The notes under the pieces are model-generated. The model was not told where the DNA came from, did no database searches, and saw only the letters and a program-made list of their open reading frames with translations. A program made the position numbers and the translations under genes. From an uncultured Pelagibacteraceae bacterium (lineage in GTDB: Bacteria > Pseudomonadota > Alphaproteobacteria > Pelagibacterales > Pelagibacteraceae): a stretch of 62,484 nt of DNA. The stretch is taken from assembly GCA_902553555.1 (NCBI GenBank), contig CACDLE010000004.1, positions 1-62,484 on the forward strand. The letters run 5' to 3'. This document shows positions 39,084 to 48,706 of the stretch, one piece after another. Positions within the stretch are counted from its first letter, which is position 1; the number at the start of each line of letters is the position of its first letter.

Positions 39084-39949
39084 TTAAAAAAGGTATTATA
39101 CTAGCTGGTGGATTAGGAACTAGAATGAGTCCAATTACTAAATCAGTAAATAAACAATTGTTACCTATTTACGATAAACCAATGATTTTTTATCCTCTCT
39201 CAATTTTAATGTTAGCTGGGATTAAAGAAATATTAATTATAGTAAATAAAGGTCAAGTTTCTCAATTTAGAAAAGTTTTAAAAAATGGTGAACATTTGGG
39301 TATCAAAATTCAGTACAAAGAACAAAGTCAACCAAATGGTCTACCTGAGGCTTTTGTAATTGGAGAAAAATTTATAAATAATCAGAATGTTGCCCTAATA
39401 CTTGGAGATAATTTTTTTTATGCTCAAAGTCTTACAAAAACTTTACAAAATTCAGTTAAACTAAAAACTGGAGCAAAAGTTTTTTTGCATCCTGTTAAAA
39501 ATCCAAAATTATATGGCATTGCTACATTAAACAAAAAAAATAAAGTTATTAAATTGATTGAAAAACCAATTAAAACAAAATCGAATTTAGCTGTTACTGG
39601 ATTATATTTTTTTGATAAAAATGTTGTAAAATTTAGTAAACAACTTAAACCATCTAAACGTAAAGAATTGGAGATAGTAGACTTGCTAAATAAATATAAA
39701 AAATTAAATAGATTAAATGCTGAATTCCTCGGACGAGGAGGTGCATGGCTTGATGCTGGGTCAATCGATGATTATTACGATACTACTGCTTTTGTTTCTG
39801 CAATAGAAAAAAGACAAGGTTTTAAAATAGCTTGTTTAGAGGAAATATCGTTCAGGAAGAAATGGATTAGTAAAAAAGAACTGGAAAAAGGTATAAAATT
39901 TTATGGCAATTGTGAGTATTCGAAATATTTAAAATTACTTTTGACCTAA
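39080..39949 (+). CDS. rfbA: Glucose-1-phosphate thymidylyltransferase
   Basis: A 289-residue nucleotidyltransferase that makes dTDP-glucose from dTTP and glucose 1-phosphate. The N-terminal GIILAGGLGTRMSPITKSVNKQLLPIYDKPMI region is the RmlA signature (G-x-G-T-R-x9-K). Further family marks are LGDNFFY and RGGAWLDAGS. Length is typical. It is coupled to rfbB by a 4-nt overlap and converges on the DUF4422 gene with a 15-nt overlap of coding ends. Confidence 0.96.
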   Translation: MIKKGIILAGGLGTRMSPITKSVNKQLLPIYDKPMIFYPLSILMLAGIKEILIIVNKGQVSQFRKVLKNGEHLGIKIQYKEQSQPNGLPEAFVIGEKFINNQNVALILGDNFFYAQSLTKTLQNSVKLKTGAKVFLHPVKNPKLYGIATLNKKNKVIKLIEKPIKTKSNLAVTGLYFFDKNVVKFSKQLKPSKRKELEIVDLLNKYKKLNRLNAEFLGRGGAWLDAGSIDDYYDTTAFVSAIEKRQGFKIACLEEISFRKKWISKKELEKGIKFYGNCEYSKYLKLLLT

Positions 39950-40765
39950 GTCATTGTTTATATCGTAAAATAAGATTGGTATTTCAACATATTTTGCATT
40001 TTTTTTGAACCAATAAGACATAAATCTTTCAGCTAAAAAACCGTATATTCTTGTCATGCCATAACCTTTTAATTTTTCGAAACCAAAAATATCTTCACAT
40101 AAACTTAACCATTTAAAAATATCTTCATAATATCTTCTAAGAAGATTTTTAGATTTACAAATAAACATATTGTGCGGATTAAAAGAATATTCAGTTGAAA
40201 CAAAATGCTGAAAATCTTTTTTATTTTCATCATCAAGTAGCTCTATAGCTTTTTTTAAGTTATTTCTGCCATGCATTAAATCAAAATGAAATTTAATAGT
40301 CCTTGATTTTTCATCAAATAAATATTTAGGATTAGATAGTATCAATTTGAAACCTTTTTTTAAAAATTTCATTGTTCTTCTTTGGTTTATATAAAAAGGT
40401 TTTCCAAGTATTACGTCGTATTTTTCAAATTTACTTGGTATTTCTTTTAAAGATATTTCTTTTAATTTTCTTAAAGAAAGATCTTCGAAATTAACATCAT
40501 TAAGAGACCAAAACTTTCTATATTGGCAGAAACCCAGCCATTTATTTTCCTCTAAATTTTTAAAATAGTTTTTCCATAACCAGTAGTGAAAAGTGTACTC
40601 TCCATAATATTTATTTTTACTCGAAATATTTTCACCCGTTTTGTCACCGAAACAATTAATTGATGGCTTTTTTTCACCAAGAACAACTGGATCGTAGTCT
40701 AAACTTTTTATCAAATCTATATGAGATGGTTCTAAAGTAATACAAAACATTTTGAGATTTTTCAT
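39935..40765 (-). CDS. DUF4422-type glycosyltransferase
   Basis: A 276-residue protein resembling the DUF4422 family of putative glycosyltransferases. Conserved elements are the YGEYTFHYWLWKNY block, WLGFCQYRKFW, and the C-terminal RIYGFLAERFMSYWF. No signal peptide is visible. The family is common in capsule and LPS clusters; the transferred sugar is unknown. It sits 4 nt after a GT2 gene on the same strand, consistent with a shared transcript. Confidence 0.78.
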   Translation of the reverse strand: MKNLKMFCITLEPSHIDLIKSLDYDPVVLGEKKPSINCFGDKTGENISSKNKYYGEYTFHYWLWKNYFKNLEENKWLGFCQYRKFWSLNDVNFEDLSLRKLKEISLKEIPSKFEKYDVILGKPFYINQRRTMKFLKKGFKLILSNPKYLFDEKSRTIKFHFDLMHGRNNLKKAIELLDDENKKDFQHFVSTEYSFNPHNMFICKSKNLLRRYYEDIFKWLSLCEDIFGFEKLKGYGMTRIYGFLAERFMSYWFKKNAKYVEIPILFYDINNDLGQK

Positions 40766-40769
40766 AAAT

Positions 40770-41645
40770 TTAATTATCTTTAATATTTGGTCTAAAGTGT
40801 GATTTTTTCAGAAAGATACCATTGATAATGCCAGAAATGCTATGTAGATGTAAATTTATTTCATTCAAATTCATTTTAAAAAATGAAATTATTATACCTT
40901 TAATACCTTGATATATATTTGGAGAGATTTTCTTTAAAGCATAAAAATAATTATTATTCTTTTTAAAATAATAAAATTTTGACCAACTAAAGTGCCAGTT
41001 TCTATTTAACATTATTGCATCGTTAAATTTATTGTCAGATGAACTTGTCCCAAGATGATCAAATTTTAATCCTTTGATGATATACATTTTATGTCTTTTT
41101 GAAAATAAATGTCTACAAAGATCCATTGTCTCAAAATACAGAAAATAATTTTCGTCTAATATATTTTTATCTTTAAATTTCAACTTATTGATAACACAAA
41201 AGCACCAATCTATATCTTTAACTTCTTGTAACTTAAATTTTGATATATTTTTTTCTTTAATCCTTTTTTCCCCTGCATGGATATAATTTTTATAAATTTT
41301 TTGATTTTTGTATTCTGGAGCTATTAATGTAAAATTTTTAAAAGATTTAATAATTTTAATTATCTGATTTATTAAATTTGAGTTGATGATAACATCAGGA
41401 GTCAAAGACAAAACGTAATTATTTTTACTTTTTTTGAAACCTAAGTTAAAAGCTGAAGCATAGCCTAAATTTTTGGCAGGTATAATGACTTTAGTATTAT
41501 TATATTTTTTTTCAAAATCTTTTTTTACATCAACTTTGAGTGAATTTTCAATAATGATTATTTCATTTTCTTTTGGTATTTTTTTAATAATTTTATTTAG
41601 TAATTTCTCACTGTTATATGAAACTATAATTATAGATAAATTCAT
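40770..41645 (-). CDS. GT2-family glycosyltransferase (paralogue of the 37138 gene)
   Basis: A 291-residue GT-A glycosyltransferase starting LSIIIVSYNSEKLLNKII. NLGYASAFNLGF and TPDVIINSNL mark the donor/metal site, although the usual D-x-D is reduced to TPD. YFLYFETMDLCRHLF matches the catalytic region of rhamnosyltransferase-like enzymes. The NWHFSWSKFYYF and GIFLKKSHFRPN blocks closely parallel the GT2 protein encoded at 37138. It starts 17 nt downstream of the tRNA-Met on the same strand. Confidence 0.87.
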   Translation of the reverse strand: MNLSIIIVSYNSEKLLNKIIKKIPKENEIIIIENSLKVDVKKDFEKKYNNTKVIIPAKNLGYASAFNLGFKKSKNNYVLSLTPDVIINSNLINQIIKIIKSFKNFTLIAPEYKNQKIYKNYIHAGEKRIKEKNISKFKLQEVKDIDWCFCVINKLKFKDKNILDENYFLYFETMDLCRHLFSKRHKMYIIKGLKFDHLGTSSSDNKFNDAIMLNRNWHFSWSKFYYFKKNNNYFYALKKISPNIYQGIKGIIISFFKMNLNEINLHLHSISGIINGIFLKKSHFRPNIKDN

Positions 41646-41826: not shown

Positions 41827-43068
41827 TTACAAAAACTTATCAATTTTTAGCAATTTATCTGTAAGGTAATTTAATTTATCTAAGCTAATTTTTTCTGTTG
41901 GTAGACCTATAAAAAAACCTCTATCTTCAATTTCTTGTGCGGATTTAAACTTTTCATTTTTTTTATTAAGTTTATATAATTTAATGCTCGGTTGATTAAG
42001 AAAATTTCCACTTATTATTGGTCTTGTCTCAATCTTGTTTTTATTAAGAAAATTTAAAAAATTTTTCTTAGTTTTTATATATCTTCCTTTAAGAAGTATT
42101 GGTAATCCGAACCAGCTCGGTTTAAGATATTTGACTGGATCAATAAATTGAAATTGGTCACTCCATGTTTTTGATCGTAATAATTTCTTGATTATTAAGT
42201 CTCTATTGAAAGATCTATTTTTTTTAAATTTATTTAATTTTCTAAGCTGATTTAATGCTATTGAAGCAGTTATATCCATAGGACGTAAATTAAAACCTGA
42301 ATTTATAAAGTTGAAATTCTTATTATTTTTTTTATTTAATCCCCTATCCCAACCATGAGCTCTAAGTGAATGTAATATTTCATAGTCTTTTTTATCATTA
42401 CAAACTATCATACCTCCCTCACCTGATGTAATTTGGTGTGAAACGTAAAAAGAAAATGTTCCAAATCTTCCGAAAGTACCGAGAGATTTATTTTTAAATT
42501 TTGAACCAAGAGACTCGCAAGTATCCTCAATGATTTGTAAATTTTTATTTTTTGAAATTTTTATTAATTCAGTCATATTTGTTGAATTTCCTAAAATATG
42601 AACAGCCATTATAGCTTTAGTTTTTTTGCTAATTTTTTTTTTCAAATCTTTAAGATTCATATTTAAAGTTTTTACATCTACATCAACAAATTTTGGTTTT
42701 AAACCGCTTTGCAATATAGGCCATAGAGAAGTTGACCAACAAAGTGAGGGTATTAAGCATTCGTCTCCTCTCCTTAATTTTTGTTTTGCTTTAGGATTTA
42801 CTAAGCAGAAAAATGCCAATAGATTTGCTGACGAGCCAGAGTTTACCATTAACGCATACTTTGAACCTACATATCTTGCAAATTCTTTTTCAAATTTTTT
42901 AGTTATCTCAGACATAGTTAATCTTCCACTTATCATCACTTTTATTCCTGAAATTAAATCATCGATTGCAAAGGTATCAGAAGCTAAAGGATAGTTTTTA
43001 ATACTATTCCCCTTCATAAATTTTTTTTTAATTAATTTTTTTAAAAAAATATTTTCAGACGATTTCAT
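41827..43068 (-). CDS. PLP-dependent sugar 3-dehydratase (ColD/RfbH-like DegT family)
   Basis: A 413-residue DegT/DnrJ/EryC1/StrS-fold protein. The PLP-phosphate and ring contacts are in NSGSSANLLAF and IEDTCESLGSKF (Asp182). At the usual Schiff-base lysine the sequence reads SFYVSHQITSGEGGM, with His211 in its place. This Lys-to-His swap is the mark of 3-dehydratases such as ColD (GDP-4-keto-6-deoxymannose) and RfbH (CDP sugars), and LRAHGWDRGL is also ColD-like. With gmd nearby, ColD-type chemistry toward a 3,6-dideoxyhexose is likely. It ends 88 nt upstream of the tRNA. Confidence 0.85.
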   Translation of the reverse strand: MKSSENIFLKKLIKKKFMKGNSIKNYPLASDTFAIDDLISGIKVMISGRLTMSEITKKFEKEFARYVGSKYALMVNSGSSANLLAFFCLVNPKAKQKLRRGDECLIPSLCWSTSLWPILQSGLKPKFVDVDVKTLNMNLKDLKKKISKKTKAIMAVHILGNSTNMTELIKISKNKNLQIIEDTCESLGSKFKNKSLGTFGRFGTFSFYVSHQITSGEGGMIVCNDKKDYEILHSLRAHGWDRGLNKKNNKNFNFINSGFNLRPMDITASIALNQLRKLNKFKKNRSFNRDLIIKKLLRSKTWSDQFQFIDPVKYLKPSWFGLPILLKGRYIKTKKNFLNFLNKNKIETRPIISGNFLNQPSIKLYKLNKKNEKFKSAQEIEDRGFFIGLPTEKISLDKLNYLTDKLLKIDKFL

Positions 43069-43073
43069 TTTAT

Positions 43074-43985
43074 TTAATCACCTTTTGTTTGGTATAATAT
43101 CTTAAAAAATTTTTCGAAATGTGGCTGGTAATAAAAATCATATGCATTTTTTCCTATTGGTTGTACTACAGGAAAAAATGGTTCGGCTTCTAACAATCTT
43201 GGGACTTTAAGCGCTTCAGCCATTGGATAAGCAATCGATTGATTTCCAATAAAAAATTTTGAAGACTTAATTATTTGGGCCATCTCTAAAAAATCTTTAC
43301 ATTCATATATCATCAAATTTGGTACCTCTTTTTTTAAATCTAAATATTCATCATTAGTACCAATAAAATACAAATCATCAAAGTTTTTTAAAAATTTATA
43401 ATTTATAAACTGATTACGATGTCTAAATGTTCTATGAATAATAATCTTATCTTTTAGTTCATTATGTTCATCTACCTCTAAGTAAGGAGTAGATAAATCA
43501 ACTTGCACACCGGTGATATGGAAATACCATCTTGGTGAATTAAAACAAATATTAACTGGAAGAGTTCTAAATAAATTTAAATCAATATCAATTTCTTGAT
43601 TAGTATATTTTTCAATTTTAGTTATAAATGTTTGTTTCTGTATTAAAGGCAAAAATAAATTCAGCATTCTTTCGTCAATATAGTATCCGTTAGCTGGATG
43701 TTTAAAATATTCTATAGGGATTTTTTTATTTGTTTGTATAAAAAAATTACATTTATGTGTTTTAGACAATTCCTGTATAACTGAAAATGAATATATCAAA
43801 TCACCTAAATTTCCTGAATGTAAAAAATTAAGGGAAGACTGGTTTTTAATTGCTTTTTGTATGTTTAATATTTTTTCTTCATGATATTTCTTAAAAGAGA
43901 TTATTGATTGTTTTATTTTTTCTTCAGATTTAAGATTTAAGTAATTTTTTCTATTAAAATACTTTGTAATATATTTTTTAAACAT
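43074..43985 (-). CDS. GT9-like (heptosyltransferase-fold) protein
   Basis: A 303-residue protein with GT-B features. NFLHSGNLGDLIYSFSVIQEL parallels the N-terminal GDxI/L loop of GT9 transferases, but it is preceded by about 50 extra helical residues. The C-terminal half has FFIGNQSIAYPMAEALKVPRLLEAE, which resembles the SNDTGPxHxAAALG donor-site motif. The substrate is unknown and overall similarity is weak, so it could be a divergent glycosyltransferase or a related sugar-binding protein. Spacing to neighbours is 2 and 5 nt. Confidence 0.62.
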   Translation of the reverse strand: MFKKYITKYFNRKNYLNLKSEEKIKQSIISFKKYHEEKILNIQKAIKNQSSLNFLHSGNLGDLIYSFSVIQELSKTHKCNFFIQTNKKIPIEYFKHPANGYYIDERMLNLFLPLIQKQTFITKIEKYTNQEIDIDLNLFRTLPVNICFNSPRWYFHITGVQVDLSTPYLEVDEHNELKDKIIIHRTFRHRNQFINYKFLKNFDDLYFIGTNDEYLDLKKEVPNLMIYECKDFLEMAQIIKSSKFFIGNQSIAYPMAEALKVPRLLEAEPFFPVVQPIGKNAYDFYYQPHFEKFFKILYQTKGD

Positions 43986-43987
43986 AG

Positions 43988-44590
43988 TTAATTGATAAAG
44001 GTTCTATTGCAATTTTCGACTGCAAAACAATATTTTGAAAATCTTATTCTTTGAAAAGGAAATAAATTGACTAATTCATCACTATCTTTATCAGCAGAAG
44101 TCTTAAGTTCAATAATGCAATTTTTTTCTTTTTGGTAATAATTTGTTTTAAAATTTTCATATTTTATATTTTTATCAATTGAAATTCTGACATCATCAAT
44201 AATCATATATTCTCTATCGTATGTTACATAAAAATTTGGCATACATACTCCATATTTATTATCAAAACAGCCTGCTCTTTTATAAAAATCAACAGTTTTA
44301 TTATCAATAATTTTTCTAGTTTTAAATCTTCCCTCTACAGATGAATATTTTATCTCAAGATAGTTTTTTTTATCTTCTGAATTAGGATAATTCCTAATTC
44401 TAATTTTTTTTCTTGGAACAATTCCTTCAACAGAGTCATTATACATGTCTAGATTTGAGTTATCAAAATAAAGACTTTTTATTTTTCTTGGCTTATGTAT
44501 TTTTTTCCCCGAACGGTTGAAAATAAATTTTTTAAAATCAATTAAGTTTTCTTGTCTTATGTAAAGTTTCTCCTCAGTTCTAAAACTCAT
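43988..44590 (-). CDS. VTC-domain (TTM-fold) polyphosphate polymerase-like protein
   Basis: A 200-residue triphosphate-tunnel protein of the VTC family. The expected charged residues are all visible: RTEEKLYI at the start, KIRIRNY (62-68), EIK (79-81), YDREY (124-128), RISID (135-139), ELK (161-163) and FSKY (184-187). In yeast VTC4 these line the tunnel that makes polyphosphate from ATP. Unlike eukaryotic VTC proteins it has no SPX domain or membrane segment. It overlaps the CotH-like gene by 4 nt, and a DUF4956 gene follows upstream; that gene trio recurs in other bacteria, to my knowledge. Polyphosphate or phosphoryl transfer to a surface polymer is inference. Confidence 0.85.
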   Translation of the reverse strand: MSFRTEEKLYIRQENLIDFKKFIFNRSGKKIHKPRKIKSLYFDNSNLDMYNDSVEGIVPRKKIRIRNYPNSEDKKNYLEIKYSSVEGRFKTRKIIDNKTVDFYKRAGCFDNKYGVCMPNFYVTYDREYMIIDDVRISIDKNIKYENFKTNYYQKEKNCIIELKTSADKDSDELVNLFPFQRIRFSKYCFAVENCNRTFIN

Positions 44591-46941
44591 TGGTTAAATT
44601 TTCCTTGTTTAGTTATTTCTGAAAATTTATCAATTTCAAACTTGTTTACAAAATTATCGCAAATTATCTCGTTTTCAAATTTAATAACCCCTCCATTGAA
44701 CTCCTGTTTTTTATTATAAGCCGAAAGACAACTTTTAACATTATTAAAATTAAGATTATTTAAAAAAACTGTCGAACTATCTTTTGAGGCTATACCAATT
44801 TGAGAATTTTTGCCCTCAATGTATTTTATATAAATCGTCGAAGACTCACCTGCTGATAAAGCTTTATCCCCACAATTATTTAAAATTAGTAAGTCTAATT
44901 TATACTCGCCTGCTGAAAAATCAACACAATCATTTTTTGAAGAATTTATAAATATTTTATCTATATGCAAATTTGAAAAGTCTACATCCAAACCGTCACT
45001 GAAAGAGTTTTCGATCGTAATTTTTTTAATTTGGCCAGTGGTATTTATAAAATTAATAGCATCTTCACAATTAGTATTTTTTGAGTCTATTACTATATTT
45101 TCAACGCTTAAATTTATAAAGGATAAGCAGCCAGTCAAGCCATTCATGTCATTGGGATAATTTTTAGGAGTATTATTTTTTAAAAGAGCTTGCCCCTGGT
45201 ATTGGATGTTGAAATTCTTTAAGTTACCTCCTATGAAATATGCTCTAGATCCTACCTCTGTTTGTATTATTTTTAAATTTAAATTATCATAGTTAGGCTT
45301 TATAATTATTCCATCCTCAAAATAAAGCGTAGAACTTCCAAATTTCATTTTGTTAAAGTTTCTATATTTTTTGATATTTTCAAAATTTAAAGTATTTCCT
45401 AAATATTGATATAAATTTTCATTAAGCACAAGTTCACCCTCTAATAAGTCTGTTAAATCATTTTGCGTAAAATTATAATCTTGGCAACTTGATAAAAATA
45501 TTCTACATCTTTGTAAACTTCCGTTTTGAGCATTTTGTTTAACCAACATAACATTAGAATCTATATCATTTAGTGTGTCGTTAAATTTTTTTAAAATATT
45601 TTCTATTGGTTTAAATCTATTATGTTCTAAAAGTTCATCATCATTAATATTTTGATAAACTTTTTCAATTCTATTTAAATTTTCTATTATTCTATTTATT
45701 TTACTCGATACCTCGTTACTACTTATGTTTAACCCTGACAAATTTATATTATTCTTTATTATTTCCTTATTAGTATTTTTAAGCTTTATCTTAAGAGAAT
45801 TAAAAGAAGAAAAAAAATTTTCTGATATTGGTAATCTATACGCAACAGTAGTAGTTGTAGGATTGTTCAAAACTATATTTGGATTTGAGTCATAGTTAAT
45901 AGGTTCAAAATAATTTTCTAATGAATTCCAATAAAATTTTCGATTGTTTGCTGCTAATCCATGCTGACTATTAGTTGCTTGAATTAAAAGATTGTAAATA
46001 TCTAATTTAAGAATATTTTTAGGATCAAAAAAACCTAAAAGTGTATTATCTAAATCGTAATCAAAATAATGAAAATTGTTTTTTTCGTCTTGGAACTTAT
46101 TAGAATAATATAAATAAATTAGGTTAAGGTTTGTGGTAGCATTAAATGACATTTTTTTTAATCCTTCACTTTTATTTATGATATTTGAGTTAACTTGTTT
46201 TGCTAGTAAATGCTTAATGCTATTGTTCATAATCGGGACAACTCCAATTTCCCAATTACTTTTTTGGTTTGAGGGTAACTTTTCAACTGCTTTGAAAAAA
46301 AATCTTTCGTCCCCTTCGAGTATTGGACCCTCTCTTCTATTATTATACTCTAATAATTCTTTTGCAGCTTTTTCTTGAAAAATCATAGTTGAATTAGCTT
46401 TATTTATTCTTGCATCAACTTTTGCTGTTCGAGGTGCCAAATAATTTAAATTTCTTAACAATTCTGTTAAAAAAATTTCATCGGCGAGCCTTCCTCTTGT
46501 ATTGGGTCTTAATAGTTTAAATCTTGTAATACCCTTAATATTTCCAACTTCAAGATGAACATCAATACTTTGAATGATAGTGTTTCCTAATAAATCGATA
46601 TGGTCCTTTTCATCTCCATGATGACGTATCCTAGCACTGTACATACATTTTGTGCCATCACTATATTTAACTAAGACTGTAGCGTCGTATCTTTGTTTAA
46701 AATTTTCTGAAACATATCTTGATCTACTTGTTAGTATTCTAACGCTATTTACTATCCAATTTCTGTAATTGTGTACATCAATTTCAATTTTATCAATTTT
46801 AAGTGAGTCAAATTTTTTTGGTATAACTTCTGAAACTTCGTTAACACACCCAGAAAAGTTCTGTAACGGTTTGTTAATATTCGATAGTGTTATTTGAGGG
46901 AAGAATAAAAAGAAGGAAAAATAAATTAATATTAATCTCAT
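44587..46941 (-). CDS. Secreted CotH-kinase-like protein with C-terminal beta-helix
   Basis: A 784-residue exported protein with a signal peptide (first about 20 residues, MRLILIYFSFFLFF...). Residues about 45-360 resemble the CotH spore-coat kinase fold: strand and loop RIRHHGD (104-110), the basic KLLRPNTRGR (142-151), Glu190 in FQEK, and acidic sites DYDLD (294-298) and NYDSN (349-353). A helical linker with coiled-coil character follows (about 380-510). Residues about 520-770 form a repetitive strand pattern (IDKIFINSS, LDLLILNNC, IYIKYIEGK) typical of a right-handed beta-helix. It would act in the periplasm or on the surface. The gene lies between DUF4956 and VTC genes. Kinase activity is not provable from sequence. 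Confidence 0.8.
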   Translation of the reverse strand: MRLILIYFSFFLFFPQITLSNINKPLQNFSGCVNEVSEVIPKKFDSLKIDKIEIDVHNYRNWIVNSVRILTSRSRYVSENFKQRYDATVLVKYSDGTKCMYSARIRHHGDEKDHIDLLGNTIIQSIDVHLEVGNIKGITRFKLLRPNTRGRLADEIFLTELLRNLNYLAPRTAKVDARINKANSTMIFQEKAAKELLEYNNRREGPILEGDERFFFKAVEKLPSNQKSNWEIGVVPIMNNSIKHLLAKQVNSNIINKSEGLKKMSFNATTNLNLIYLYYSNKFQDEKNNFHYFDYDLDNTLLGFFDPKNILKLDIYNLLIQATNSQHGLAANNRKFYWNSLENYFEPINYDSNPNIVLNNPTTTTVAYRLPISENFFSSFNSLKIKLKNTNKEIIKNNINLSGLNISSNEVSSKINRIIENLNRIEKVYQNINDDELLEHNRFKPIENILKKFNDTLNDIDSNVMLVKQNAQNGSLQRCRIFLSSCQDYNFTQNDLTDLLEGELVLNENLYQYLGNTLNFENIKKYRNFNKMKFGSSTLYFEDGIIIKPNYDNLNLKIIQTEVGSRAYFIGGNLKNFNIQYQGQALLKNNTPKNYPNDMNGLTGCLSFINLSVENIVIDSKNTNCEDAINFINTTGQIKKITIENSFSDGLDVDFSNLHIDKIFINSSKNDCVDFSAGEYKLDLLILNNCGDKALSAGESSTIYIKYIEGKNSQIGIASKDSSTVFLNNLNFNNVKSCLSAYNKKQEFNGGVIKFENEIICDNFVNKFEIDKFSEITKQGKFNQ

Positions 46942-46944
46942 TAA

Positions 46945-47562
46945 CTAGTTAAAGTTTACATTGACTTTGTGAATATTTTTTTCTTCCTCAATTTTTTTCT
47001 TAAACTCTTGTAGCTCTTTTTTGTTGTTAAAGCTCAGTCTATAAATATATTCATTTTGAGATTGATCTATAAGTGAATTAGCTAAAAAATCACTGTTTTC
47101 TATAAAGTCTATTTTTTTTTTTGATGTGATTTCAAGTGTGTTGCTTGTATTACCCTCATTGAATGACATATTGTAAAATGATTTACCAGATTTTTTAAAG
47201 ATTTTTTGTAAAATTTTTACAGCAAAAATTATTATTACAGTGCATAAAACTAATTGGATTGCCCACTTTGTTCTTACACTTGTAGCAATACCGACAGTGA
47301 TTAAATCAAAATAAATTATTAATTCTAAAGCACTTTTGACTGGGTGTCTAAACCTGACTATTGAAAGAGCGCCAATCATTCCAAGTGATAAAGCTATATT
47401 TCCAGCAATTGTTTTAGTAATAACGTAAGTGATGACTGGTAAAATCATGAAAGCAACTGTTTGGGCATGTGATTTAGCCCAGGCTTGCCCTGTTAATGTA
47501 AGGGAGTATCTAATTATCAATCCACTTGATATTAGTAAAATTAAAGATTTTATTTCATCCAT
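46945..47562 (-). CDS. DUF4956 membrane protein
   Basis: A 205-residue protein with about four hydrophobic segments in the first 120 residues (LILLISSGLIIRYS, VAFMILPVITYVI, LELIIYFDLITVGIA, IQLVLCTVIIIFAV) and a cytoplasmic C-terminal domain. The GMIGALSIVRFRHPVKSALELIIYFDLI region is the DUF4956 signature. Its genes frequently neighbour VTC-domain and CotH-like genes in other bacteria. It could anchor or gate the VTC protein at the membrane, as the VTC1-like subunits do in yeast; this is inference. It is 3 nt upstream of the CotH-like gene. Confidence 0.85.
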   Translation of the reverse strand: MDEIKSLILLISSGLIIRYSLTLTGQAWAKSHAQTVAFMILPVITYVITKTIAGNIALSLGMIGALSIVRFRHPVKSALELIIYFDLITVGIATSVRTKWAIQLVLCTVIIIFAVKILQKIFKKSGKSFYNMSFNEGNTSNTLEITSKKKIDFIENSDFLANSLIDQSQNEYIYRLSFNNKKELQEFKKKIEEEKNIHKVNVNFN

Positions 47563-47590: not shown

Positions 47591-48706
47591 TCATAAGTCA
47601 CTTAATTTATTTTTAAGTAAGTTAATGTCAACATTGATATGACCCATTTGGTTATTAGCAGCGTATTTTTCAGGTACCACAGAAATACAATCGTATTCTA
47701 AATTACATTTTTTTGCTAAATTTTCATACATTAAGCCTGCTGTTGATGGTTTTAATTCTAATGTTTTTGTTCCAGAACTACAAAAAACGAAATTTGCAAA
47801 TCCTGCACCGTGGAGACCAACAATCTCTTTTGCATTATAGAAAAATTTTATTTGTTCTTTAAAACTATAATTCGAAAGAACTATACGTTTATAATTTTTA
47901 CTTTGAACCAAATTAATCACCTCTTTTTCATTTGTTATTTTTCTTAATATTTGGATATTTGGAGAGGCATCAGATCTTTCAATATAAATTTTATCTGGAA
48001 ATTTATTATCTTTTAAATCAAAATTGGAAGTTAAGGTTTTTTTTAACCATTTGATAATCCAAATCGGTAGATTTTGAATTTCATTAGTTGCATCATTTTT
48101 AATAACCCACGGATGATCGGTAGATATAATCTCATCACATTCAATATGCCTATAGATTGAGCTAGATAATCTTTTTTTTGATAGAATACCAAAAATATCA
48201 AGTGTTTCTTTTTGAAATTTTTTTTTAAGATCGGGTAACAAAAAATAATCAATTTCATTAATATTTGTGACATTGCTTAATATCTTTAATCTAGGAAGCA
48301 CATCAAACAACCAGTGGAAGTAATTATAGTTCCCAGCTCCTCCTGTTAACATAGCAAAAACCCGGCCTTTTATTTTTTTTTTTAATCTTGGAGTTCCTTT
48401 GTTAAAAACTATGTTAGTATTAATTTTGTCAAATTTAACATTTCTAATTTGAAAAGATGGTCCTTCTACAATTTTATTTTCTTGAATAATAGCAGTATCG
48501 TTAATTGTATCTGTATACAAACGTGCTTTCTGCACTTTATATACTTTATAGATAAAGTTATTATCCAGATTAGACTTTAAGACTTCAGAACTTTCATCAT
48601 TTCCCGCAGGCTTAAAATCCTTTATTTCGCCATAAAGTAATTTAAAAAGACCATAGGATAATCTTTTAAATAGTAATTGTAATTTTTTTTTTATAGTATG
48701 TATCAA
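47591..48706 (-). CDS. GT61-family (DUF563) glycosyltransferase
   Basis: A 371-residue protein of the DUF563/GT61 family. Its marks are GGAGNYNYFHWLFDVLPRLKIL, IYIERSDASPNIQILRKITNEKEV and the C-terminal IVGLHGAGFANFVFCSSGTKTLEL. Such enzymes transfer pentoses, GlcNAc or other sugars to surface glycans. It appears to be the first gene of the minus-strand run continuing through DUF4956, CotH and VTC. A divergent gmd gene starts 34 nt away, so a common promoter gap of 34 nt is shared. Confidence 0.85.
   Translation of the reverse strand: MIHTIKKKLQLLFKRLSYGLFKLLYGEIKDFKPAGNDESSEVLKSNLDNNFIYKVYKVQKARLYTDTINDTAIIQENKIVEGPSFQIRNVKFDKINTNIVFNKGTPRLKKKIKGRVFAMLTGGAGNYNYFHWLFDVLPRLKILSNVTNINEIDYFLLPDLKKKFQKETLDIFGILSKKRLSSSIYRHIECDEIISTDHPWVIKNDATNEIQNLPIWIIKWLKKTLTSNFDLKDNKFPDKIYIERSDASPNIQILRKITNEKEVINLVQSKNYKRIVLSNYSFKEQIKFFYNAKEIVGLHGAGFANFVFCSSGTKTLELKPSTAGLMYENLAKKCNLEYDCISVVPEKYAANNQMGHINVDINLLKNKLSDL

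Follow-up and report, generated by a model that had tools for sequence, protein, structure and literature searches.

Genes for CotH, PPP and DUF4956 proteins have been published as accessory genes of Pel loci in Gram-positive bacteria (e.g., SIR_1592-1594 of S. intermedius) (PMC7112168, PMC12345266); these papers, like the two cited below, are used here in excerpt. The excerpts of PMC12345266 describe CotH as secreted and SIR_1592 (DUF4956) as an MgtC-like transmembrane region plus an ACT tail, and they report that the arrangement was found nowhere outside Pel loci. Here we analyse a trio of the same three families, side by side, that encodes DUF4956, CotH-fold and VTC proteins in 62,484 nucleotides of DNA from an uncultured Pelagibacteraceae bacterium (contig CACDLE010000004.1 of assembly GCA_902553555.1), a stretch that we call the window. 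We find that this trio is not strain-specific but a general module that bacteria share with some archaea, and that it occurs outside Pel loci, which contradicts the Pel-only report of the excerpts. PelG was absent from the window's genome assembly (62.7% complete) and was not among the 19 families that we identified in 43 multi-span open reading frames (ORFs) of PelG size near 79 trio loci, many of them cut off by contig ends. Further differences from the Pel accessory genes are a CotH protein with a beta-helix and with His for Asp, an export-type pyrophosphatase in some loci, and an occurrence in many phyla and in archaea.

Three other systems resemble parts of the locus. In yeast, the eukaryotic VTC complex (Vtc1/3/4) couples cytosolic polyphosphate synthesis to passage into the vacuole through a channel lined with basic residues; pyrophosphate acts as its primer, and R264A/R266A/E426N impairs it (PMC9911596). 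The window locus shares a charged VTC tunnel domain and has a candidate membrane partner in DUF4956, and coupled synthesis and translocation is the parallel that we propose. Here, however, VTC is predicted to be soluble and is separate from the membrane protein, and Pfam placed only VTC above its cut-off in the 200-residue window protein, with neither an SPX domain nor a VTC domain joined to a transmembrane domain. The CotH spore-coat kinase (5jd9/5jda) needs both D228 and D251 in B. subtilis, where D228Q and D251A are inactive (PMC7821199). The window protein has the same kinase fold and keeps the metal Asp D251, but it is predicted to be exported, is joined to a beta-helix and has His at D228. 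That beta-helix shares its fold with polysaccharide enzymes (PL3 pectate lyase, AlgG/AlgE epimerases, GH28), with a weak PL3 match in relatives, but it bears an Asp/Lys/Glu ladder of its own and has no specific enzyme family assignment.

A search confined to the open-access literature found no account of the trio outside Pel or of DUF4956 function. As far as that literature shows, four elements are new: the trio outside Pel and in archaea, a near-obligate VTC-DUF4956 pairing, a His-type CotH/beta-helix class, and the link to export-type pyrophosphatases.

A DUF4956-CotH-VTC trio is shared by bacteria and some archaea

In the window, the trio consists of three minus-strand ORFs (Table 1), with a gap of 3 nt between the DUF4956 and CotH-like genes and an overlap of 4 nt between the CotH-like and VTC genes. 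The trio is real, and the placement and spacing given by a sequence-only reading of the window were exact. That reading had proposed an envelope phosphoryl or polyphosphate system and had looked to co-occurrence beyond this strain for support, which we found in abundance. We scanned named genomes with a DUF4956 alignment and took the best 80 of 577 relatives, choosing loci by DUF4956 only. CotH, VTC and DUF4956 were then called with in-house profiles iterated for four rounds, in which some wrong CotH calls are possible. All three genes were present at 52 of these 80 loci, in many phyla including archaea; the others held DUF4956 and CotH (12), DUF4956 and VTC (11), DUF4956 only (4) or VTC only (1). 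Full trios included ones from Calditrichaeota (L084), Anaerolineae (L088), Acidimicrobiia (L089), Planctomycetota (L090), Saprospiraceae (L091), Gammaproteobacteria (L100), Omnitrophota (L102), Verrucomicrobia (L106), Methanosarcina (L120), Woesearchaeota (L122, L124), Pelagibacteraceae (L134) and Vallitaleaceae (L136).

A single same-strand chain held all three genes in 48 of 79 loci, in the orders DUF-CotH-VTC (20), CotH-DUF-VTC (17), DUF-VTC-CotH with or without a second CotH (9) and VTC-DUF-CotH (2). Because gene order differs along the chain, linkage has been kept and order has not. At the 37 loci with at least 6 kb on either side, CotH was on the DUF4956-VTC chain in 28. The protein distances of the three families also correlate over 72 loci (r of 0.85, 0.59 and 0.57, with species relatedness left in; 0 of 999 permutations were as high). 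DUF4956 was found on three plasmid records, and both of the two inspected (Planococcus and Pseudobutyrivibrio) carry the trio, the Pseudobutyrivibrio one inside a polysaccharide-type cluster.

VTC also pairs with DUF4956 across genomes. In a 349-genome sample of the window's phylum, Pseudomonadota, DUF4956 was found in 8 genomes, VTC over cut-off in 7 and both in 7 (hypergeometric P = 7e-14), and in a 148-genome sample of Bacteroidota, the phylum of Dokdonia, VTC was found in 29, DUF4956 in 45 and both in 29 (P = 1e-19); both P values take genomes as independent. Among 14 control genomes, the same 3 matched both families. Corynebacterium glutamicum and Methanosarcina acetivorans each have matches to VTC and DUF4956. 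By our reading, all but one of 33 Bacteroidota VTC places lie less than 4 kb from a same-strand DUF4956; the exception matches VTC only in part and is on a different contig. The Pseudomonadota sample held nine DUF4956 places outside the window's family, with VTC beside eight and CotH beside five (DUF4956 of L065 and L066 was assigned by Pfam only, and CotH of L071 by Pfam). For VTC, the pairing is thus near-obligate in these two phylum samples.

Within the window's family, CotH was sought in 147 genomes and matched in 26. VTC was present in 24 genomes, all among those 26; the other two are G010 and G119 (contig ends inside CotH). The first 20 family stretches had all three genes in the order DUF4956-CotH-VTC in 17 cases, while L038 and L044 are ended by contig edges and L049 has VTC-CotH without DUF4956. 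Nine more family places gave the trio (L075, L079, L081), the trio with one intervening gene (L076, L077, L078), a locus ended by a contig edge (L080, L082) and, at a weak match in G010 (L083), none of the three genes. Any other gene cluster was present in at most 12 of the 21 family stretches compared. L036 and L073 are the same place, as are L038 and L074, and locus, topology, ladder and residue counts may hold a place twice.

The VTC and DUF4956 proteins

The window VTC protein matches PF09359 with 80.7 bits against a curated cut-off of 23 (E = 1.5e-22). A profile of 14 family VTC proteins found only VTC subunits in the PDB below E = 0.05 (best E = 7.5e-9); the window sequence searched by itself returned two VTC subunits and nothing else (E = 0.2 and 0.5). 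Crude hydropathy showed a hydrophobic N-terminus or transmembrane-like stretch in 0 of 101 VTC proteins, and the window protein is accordingly predicted to be soluble, as the sequence-only reading had said. Its further claim that all tunnel charges are retained also stands: the 18 surveyed positions, which include R-x-R, E-x-K, R126, R135, E161/K163 and S185/K186, are intact in the window, and each is kept in at least 93 of 101 VTC sequences. Nine of them (R64, R66, E79, K81, R126, R135, E161, K163 and K186) are kept in 99-101 of 101. Yeast R264/R266 were placed on the window protein through the profile-to-PDB alignment; window E161 we take to be the equivalent of yeast E426, by profile position only. 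An apparent 787-residue VTC fusion in G635 was set aside, as it is probably an artefact, a long frame that GC-rich DNA leaves open and that ends in the VTC gene.

The window DUF4956 protein matches PF16316 with 42.1 bits against a curated cut-off of 30.6 (E = 9.6e-11). Its structural model (predicted local distance difference test score, pLDDT, 79.8) has about five helices followed by an ACT-like tail. G64, R70, R72 and G91 are kept in 114 of 114 aligned sequences, among which the one place labelled L038 and L074 is counted twice. Position 76, in the best conserved stretch together with R70 and R72, is Lys in 109 and Arg in 5 of the 114. Families of the MgtC type were not among the Pfam matches of the window proteins in a general Pfam scan, a dedicated MgtC homology test not having been made, and in the searches made DUF4956 did not prove related to the membrane domains of VTC.

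Seven loci, mostly from Chloroflexota and one from Acidimicrobiia, encode DUF4956 proteins of 448-527 residues with an extra N-terminal region of about 220 residues or more and a signal-like start (L088, L089, L092, L098, L103, L108, L113). This extended start hints at an outward-facing N-terminus of the membrane part, and the extra region could be a glycan-binding domain.

A His-type CotH fold is joined to a beta-helix

The 784-residue window protein has no PF08757 match up to E = 1, and its Pfam match, to SesA (E = 0.047), is a chance one. We assign it to CotH because PF08757 matches 2 of its 15 family relatives (best E = 3.9e-10) and because its model matches B. cereus CotH. Foldseek ranked 5jda and 5jd9 at the top (E = 3e-9 and 8e-9), and VIA-align superposed model residues 48-430 on 5jd9 with Z = 18.2 (307 aligned, root-mean-square deviation 4.3). 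A single-sequence search of solved structures with the window protein gave no match. The same search with the canonical CotH of L071 also gave no structure match, and L164 was therefore used for residue mapping. NCBIfam families matched neither the window trio (up to E = 1) nor any of seven CotH proteins with a beta-helix (up to E = 0.01), and no relatives of the window CotH were found in phages.

The sequence-only reading had called this protein CotH-kinase-like and secreted. The fold and the export hold up, the latter as a prediction: the window CotH is predicted to be exported, and 89 of 102 CotH proteins have a hydrophobic N-terminus by crude hydropathy. The catalytic residues fare differently. 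In the B. cereus CotH alignment, two Asp residues lie 23 residues apart (FD ... PWD, counted by eye), which fits D228/D251 of B. subtilis, and the B. subtilis numbers were set on B. cereus CotH through this equal spacing. We define a beta-helix class as the 74 of 107 aligned CotH-like proteins with at least 8 of 11 ladder residues. In this class, the D228 position is His in 66 of 74 proteins (H327 in the window) and the D251 position is mostly kept, with Asp in 65 of 74 (D351 in the window). E190 and N333 of the kinase fold are kept in 71 and 58 of the 74. The canonical pocket Lys is present in 35 of 46 class members outside the window's family but in just 6 of 28 family members, and the window protein has Ile there. 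CotH-like proteins with fewer than 4 ladder residues, some of them ended by contig edges, have the His in 8 of 26 cases, and two Chloroflexota CotH proteins keep the canonical Asp. Judged by these residues, the window protein cannot be called a plain CotH kinase. Loss of catalytic residues, which could have undone the sequence-only reading, thus touches one of the two Asp positions of CotH and none of the VTC positions surveyed.

The beta-helix tail, which had also been read from sequence, is confirmed at residues about 529-780. This region superposes with Z = 16.9-20.0 on right-handed beta-helix epimerases, polygalacturonases, lyases and tailspikes, values that come from a re-examination of Foldseek's own match list, and in the model it resembles polysaccharide-acting enzymes. 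A beta-helix profile found no credible relative among solved structures, and PF03211 (PL3 pectate lyase) matches 3 of 20 beta-helix sequences weakly (best E = 7e-4). These 20 were chosen for at least 10 of 11 ladder residues, and their 17 invariant columns are partly a selection effect. The beta-helix is nonetheless the best conserved part of the protein: of the 28 columns invariant among 15 family proteins, 22 fall at residues 604-774, and each of the 11 ladder residues is present in 74-90 of 107 CotH-like proteins. A beta-helix of this enzyme type suggests that the CotH/beta-helix protein works on or with a glycan.

Export-type pyrophosphatases occur inside the trio

A family I pyrophosphatase (PF00719) is encoded in 3 of 147 family genomes, each time inside the trio and with a signal-like N-terminus. 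In L037 (6122-9109, plus strand; genome G068), the CotH/beta-helix protein is itself fused to a pyrophosphatase (PF00719, E = 1.7e-30, covering positions 1-152 of the 153 in the profile). L078 encodes a separate pyrophosphatase between CotH and VTC, again with a signal-like start, and L052 has one immediately after VTC. Lipoprotein-like pyrophosphatases occur in Bacteroidota just upstream of DUF4956 (L138) and in a same-strand run after VTC (L163), and the genomes of both loci hold a second copy of 176-181 residues elsewhere. Export type was judged for all six pyrophosphatases from N-terminal hydrophobicity and lipoboxes by eye, with no signal-peptide program. The link of the trio to export-type pyrophosphatase is independent support for the sequence-only reading.

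The L037 pyrophosphatase is not a displaced housekeeping gene, as 144 of 147 relatives lack PF00719 (the one pyrophosphatase family searched for). Cytosolic pyrophosphate must be cleared another way in these genomes, perhaps by a membrane pyrophosphatase.

Separately, a C-terminal stretch of CotH in L040 (7732-10119, minus strand) resembles, by eye, the last part of a pyrophosphatase domain.

A tentative model for the trio and its alternatives

We tentatively read the trio, with a confidence that falls somewhat short of even, as one unit for envelope phosphate chemistry, in which a split VTC-like polyphosphate synthase/translocase feeds an extracytoplasmic glycan phosphoryl reaction. Cytosolic VTC would polymerise phosphate from ATP, and DUF4956, its near-obligate membrane partner, would take the nascent chain across the inner membrane; together they would be to prokaryotes what the VTC synthase/translocase is to eukaryotes, but split over two proteins. 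We read the pair in this way because DUF4956 accompanies VTC in every genome of the two samples with VTC over cut-off and bears the invariant R70/R72 and a basic position 76. Outside, the CotH-fold protein would use the chain on a surface glycan that the beta-helix holds, which it would phosphorylate or modify in some other way, a role that we propose because the protein is predicted to be exported and is joined in many loci to a glycan-type beta-helix. In some lineages, an exported pyrophosphatase would then remove left-over pyrophosphate.

This model starts from the parts themselves, their predicted topology, the intact VTC residues, the VTC-DUF4956 pairing, the linkage across phyla and the apparent export-type pyrophosphatase in the trio; from these we infer a polyphosphate product, its passage through DUF4956, its use by CotH and a glycan acceptor. 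The correlated protein distances, the PHO4 phosphate transporter beside DUF4956-VTC in L064 and L065 and the yeast precedent also speak for it. The sequence-only proposal of an envelope phosphoryl system is partly supported: it holds in its parts, predicted topology, VTC charges and co-occurrence and is joined by the pyrophosphatase link and the polysaccharide-type beta-helix, but a plain CotH kinase is not supported. In its fullest form, a prokaryotic machine would export high-energy phosphate as polyphosphate through VTC-DUF4956, and His-type CotH/beta-helix proteins would spend it on phosphorylating surface glycans, with pyrophosphatase pulling the reaction forward; we consider this complete version, which would be a general answer to the powering of phosphorylation where there is no ATP, somewhat unlikely. 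If true, the model would supply DUF4956, prokaryotic VTC proteins and a large class of exported CotH-like proteins with a function in one stroke. It would also explain the power source of a phosphoryl reaction beyond the membrane. As a general module across bacteria and some archaea, the trio is testable in easy laboratory organisms.

Several observations weigh against the model. The His that replaces the catalytic Asp (H327 in the window) permits an inactive kinase fold and makes kinase activity of the His-type class doubtful. Foldseek with the DUF4956 model matched ACT/Lrp-type tails only (best E = 4e-3), and the membrane part matched no solved fold. The pairing is looser when viewed from DUF4956: VTC over cut-off is missing from 16 of 45 Bacteroidota genomes with DUF4956 and from 1 of 8 in the Pseudomonadota sample (G396). 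In G312, DUF4956 is missing and VTC matches below the cut-off. The chain is also incomplete in part of the 79 loci, with DUF4956-VTC without CotH in 14, CotH without VTC in 13 and DUF4956 alone in 4, partly owing to contig ends. Pyrophosphatases were found at no more than 6 of 120 stretches, which represent 118 distinct places; that of L144 is encoded on the opposite strand at a distance of about 8.6 kb, and PF00719 is absent from the window's own incomplete assembly. Finally, a chain from VTC through DUF4956 to CotH should give alike deletion phenotypes, unless another polyphosphate source stands in. In the excerpts on S. intermedius, deletions of DUF4956 and CotH each lower aggregation, Pel rises without DUF4956 and falls without CotH, and deletion of the VTC gene SIR_1593 has no reported effect on aggregation or Pel level (PMC12345266).

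Some of these points suit a different account, in which the kinase fold is a pseudokinase and the beta-helix does the work outside, whether as a lyase, an epimerase or a binding module for glycans, under the control of DUF4956-VTC as a sensor of phosphate or of an energy signal. The prevalent His at D228, the Ile in the window's pocket, the ACT-type tail on DUF4956 and the lower Pel on CotH deletion (PMC12345266, in excerpt) are all consistent with it, as is a beta-helix that is better conserved than the rest of the protein and matches PL3 and GH28/AlgG-type folds. Yet E190, N333 and D351 are mostly conserved in the kinase fold, a mere regulator would not need a complete VTC tunnel, and the linked export-type pyrophosphatase and PHO4 point to real phosphate chemistry; we regard this account as somewhat unlikely.

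PHO4 itself, a phosphate transporter that adjoins DUF4956-VTC in L064 and L065 (L066 has no PHO4-sized gene beside its pair), could instead indicate that DUF4956-VTC serves phosphate homeostasis or storage, with polyphosphate kept or secreted as a reserve, an exported pyrophosphatase that scavenges, and CotH as a surface protein in loose association. In Bacteroidota, VTC-DUF4956 pairs that lack CotH, some followed by DUF2490 (L167, L171, L173), fit such a role; DUF2490 we take to be a possible outer-membrane partner. The frequency of CotH on well-covered chains, the correlated distances of the three proteins and the fusion of pyrophosphatase to CotH itself are hard to square with a loose association, and we hold this explanation to be quite unlikely. 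That the trio is a regulatory accessory of polysaccharide synthesis with CotH as a regular kinase that depends on ATP, an idea put forward for Pel loci, is the least probable explanation, for although the trio was published as Pel-locus accessory genes and two Chloroflexota CotH proteins keep the canonical Asp, PelG is missing from the assembly and ORFs examined, the Asp is lost in the beta-helix class, and CotH is predicted to be exported to where ATP is not expected.

Genomic surroundings

In the window, the trio is embedded in a same-strand run of glycan genes (Table 1). The glycosyltransferase 61 cluster to which the window's neighbouring gene belongs is present in 6 of the 21 stretches of the family. 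The source genome assembly comprises 715 kb, and the window has a GC content of 29.6%.

Table 1 Features of the trio and its neighbours, in window coordinates (pTM, predicted template-modelling score)
Feature	Position	Strand	Basis or remark
DUF4956 membrane protein, 205 aa	46945-47562	-	PF16316 E = 9.6e-11; about 5 helices, then ACT/ferredoxin-like tail; GALSIVRFR motif
CotH-fold + beta-helix protein, predicted exported, 784 aa	44587-46941	-	model pLDDT 83, pTM 0.84; best Foldseek matches 5jda/5jd9
CotH kinase-fold domain, residues 48-430	45652-46800	-	Z = 18.2 to 5jd9
H327 codon (CotH D228 position)	45961-45963	-	alignment mapping
D351 codon (CotH D251 position)	45889-45891	-	alignment mapping
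Right-handed beta-helix, residues about 529-780, with conserved Asp/Lys/Glu ladder	44602-45357	-	structure comparison, family conservation
VTC (triphosphate-tunnel) domain protein, 200 aa, predicted soluble	43988-44590	-	PF09359 E = 1.5e-22
Glycosyltransferase 61, 28 nt upstream of DUF4956 (context)	47591-48706	-	PF04577 E = 4.1e-26
303-aa protein, 2 nt downstream of VTC (context)	43074-43985	-	no credible family; TIGR04414 (heptosyltransferase) E = 0.035, far below cut-off
DegT-family sugar aminotransferase, 5 nt beyond 303-aa gene (context)	41827-43068	-	PF01041 E = 4.5e-75
DUF4422 and GT2-family glycosyltransferase genes	39935-40765 and 40770-41645	-	extend the glycan gene run downstream of the trio

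Across other loci, glycosyltransferases were the commonest families among 111 operon neighbours scanned (5 members each), and HlyD-type proteins lie beside DUF4956-VTC in L071, L168 and L170.

A protein of about 340 residues is encoded between DUF4956 and CotH or beside CotH in L076 (11013-12041, minus strand), L077 (5822-6844, plus strand) and L080 (11174-11950, minus strand, cut short); the three look related, and none has a Pfam match up to E = 0.01. The 340-residue gene beside DUF4956 in L078 encodes an ordinary ketol-acid reductoisomerase. In Dokdonia pacifica (L163, 14385-17436, plus strand), a histidine kinase and a LytTR response regulator are encoded between the trio and the lipoprotein-like pyrophosphatase, and it is possible that this pair regulates the module.

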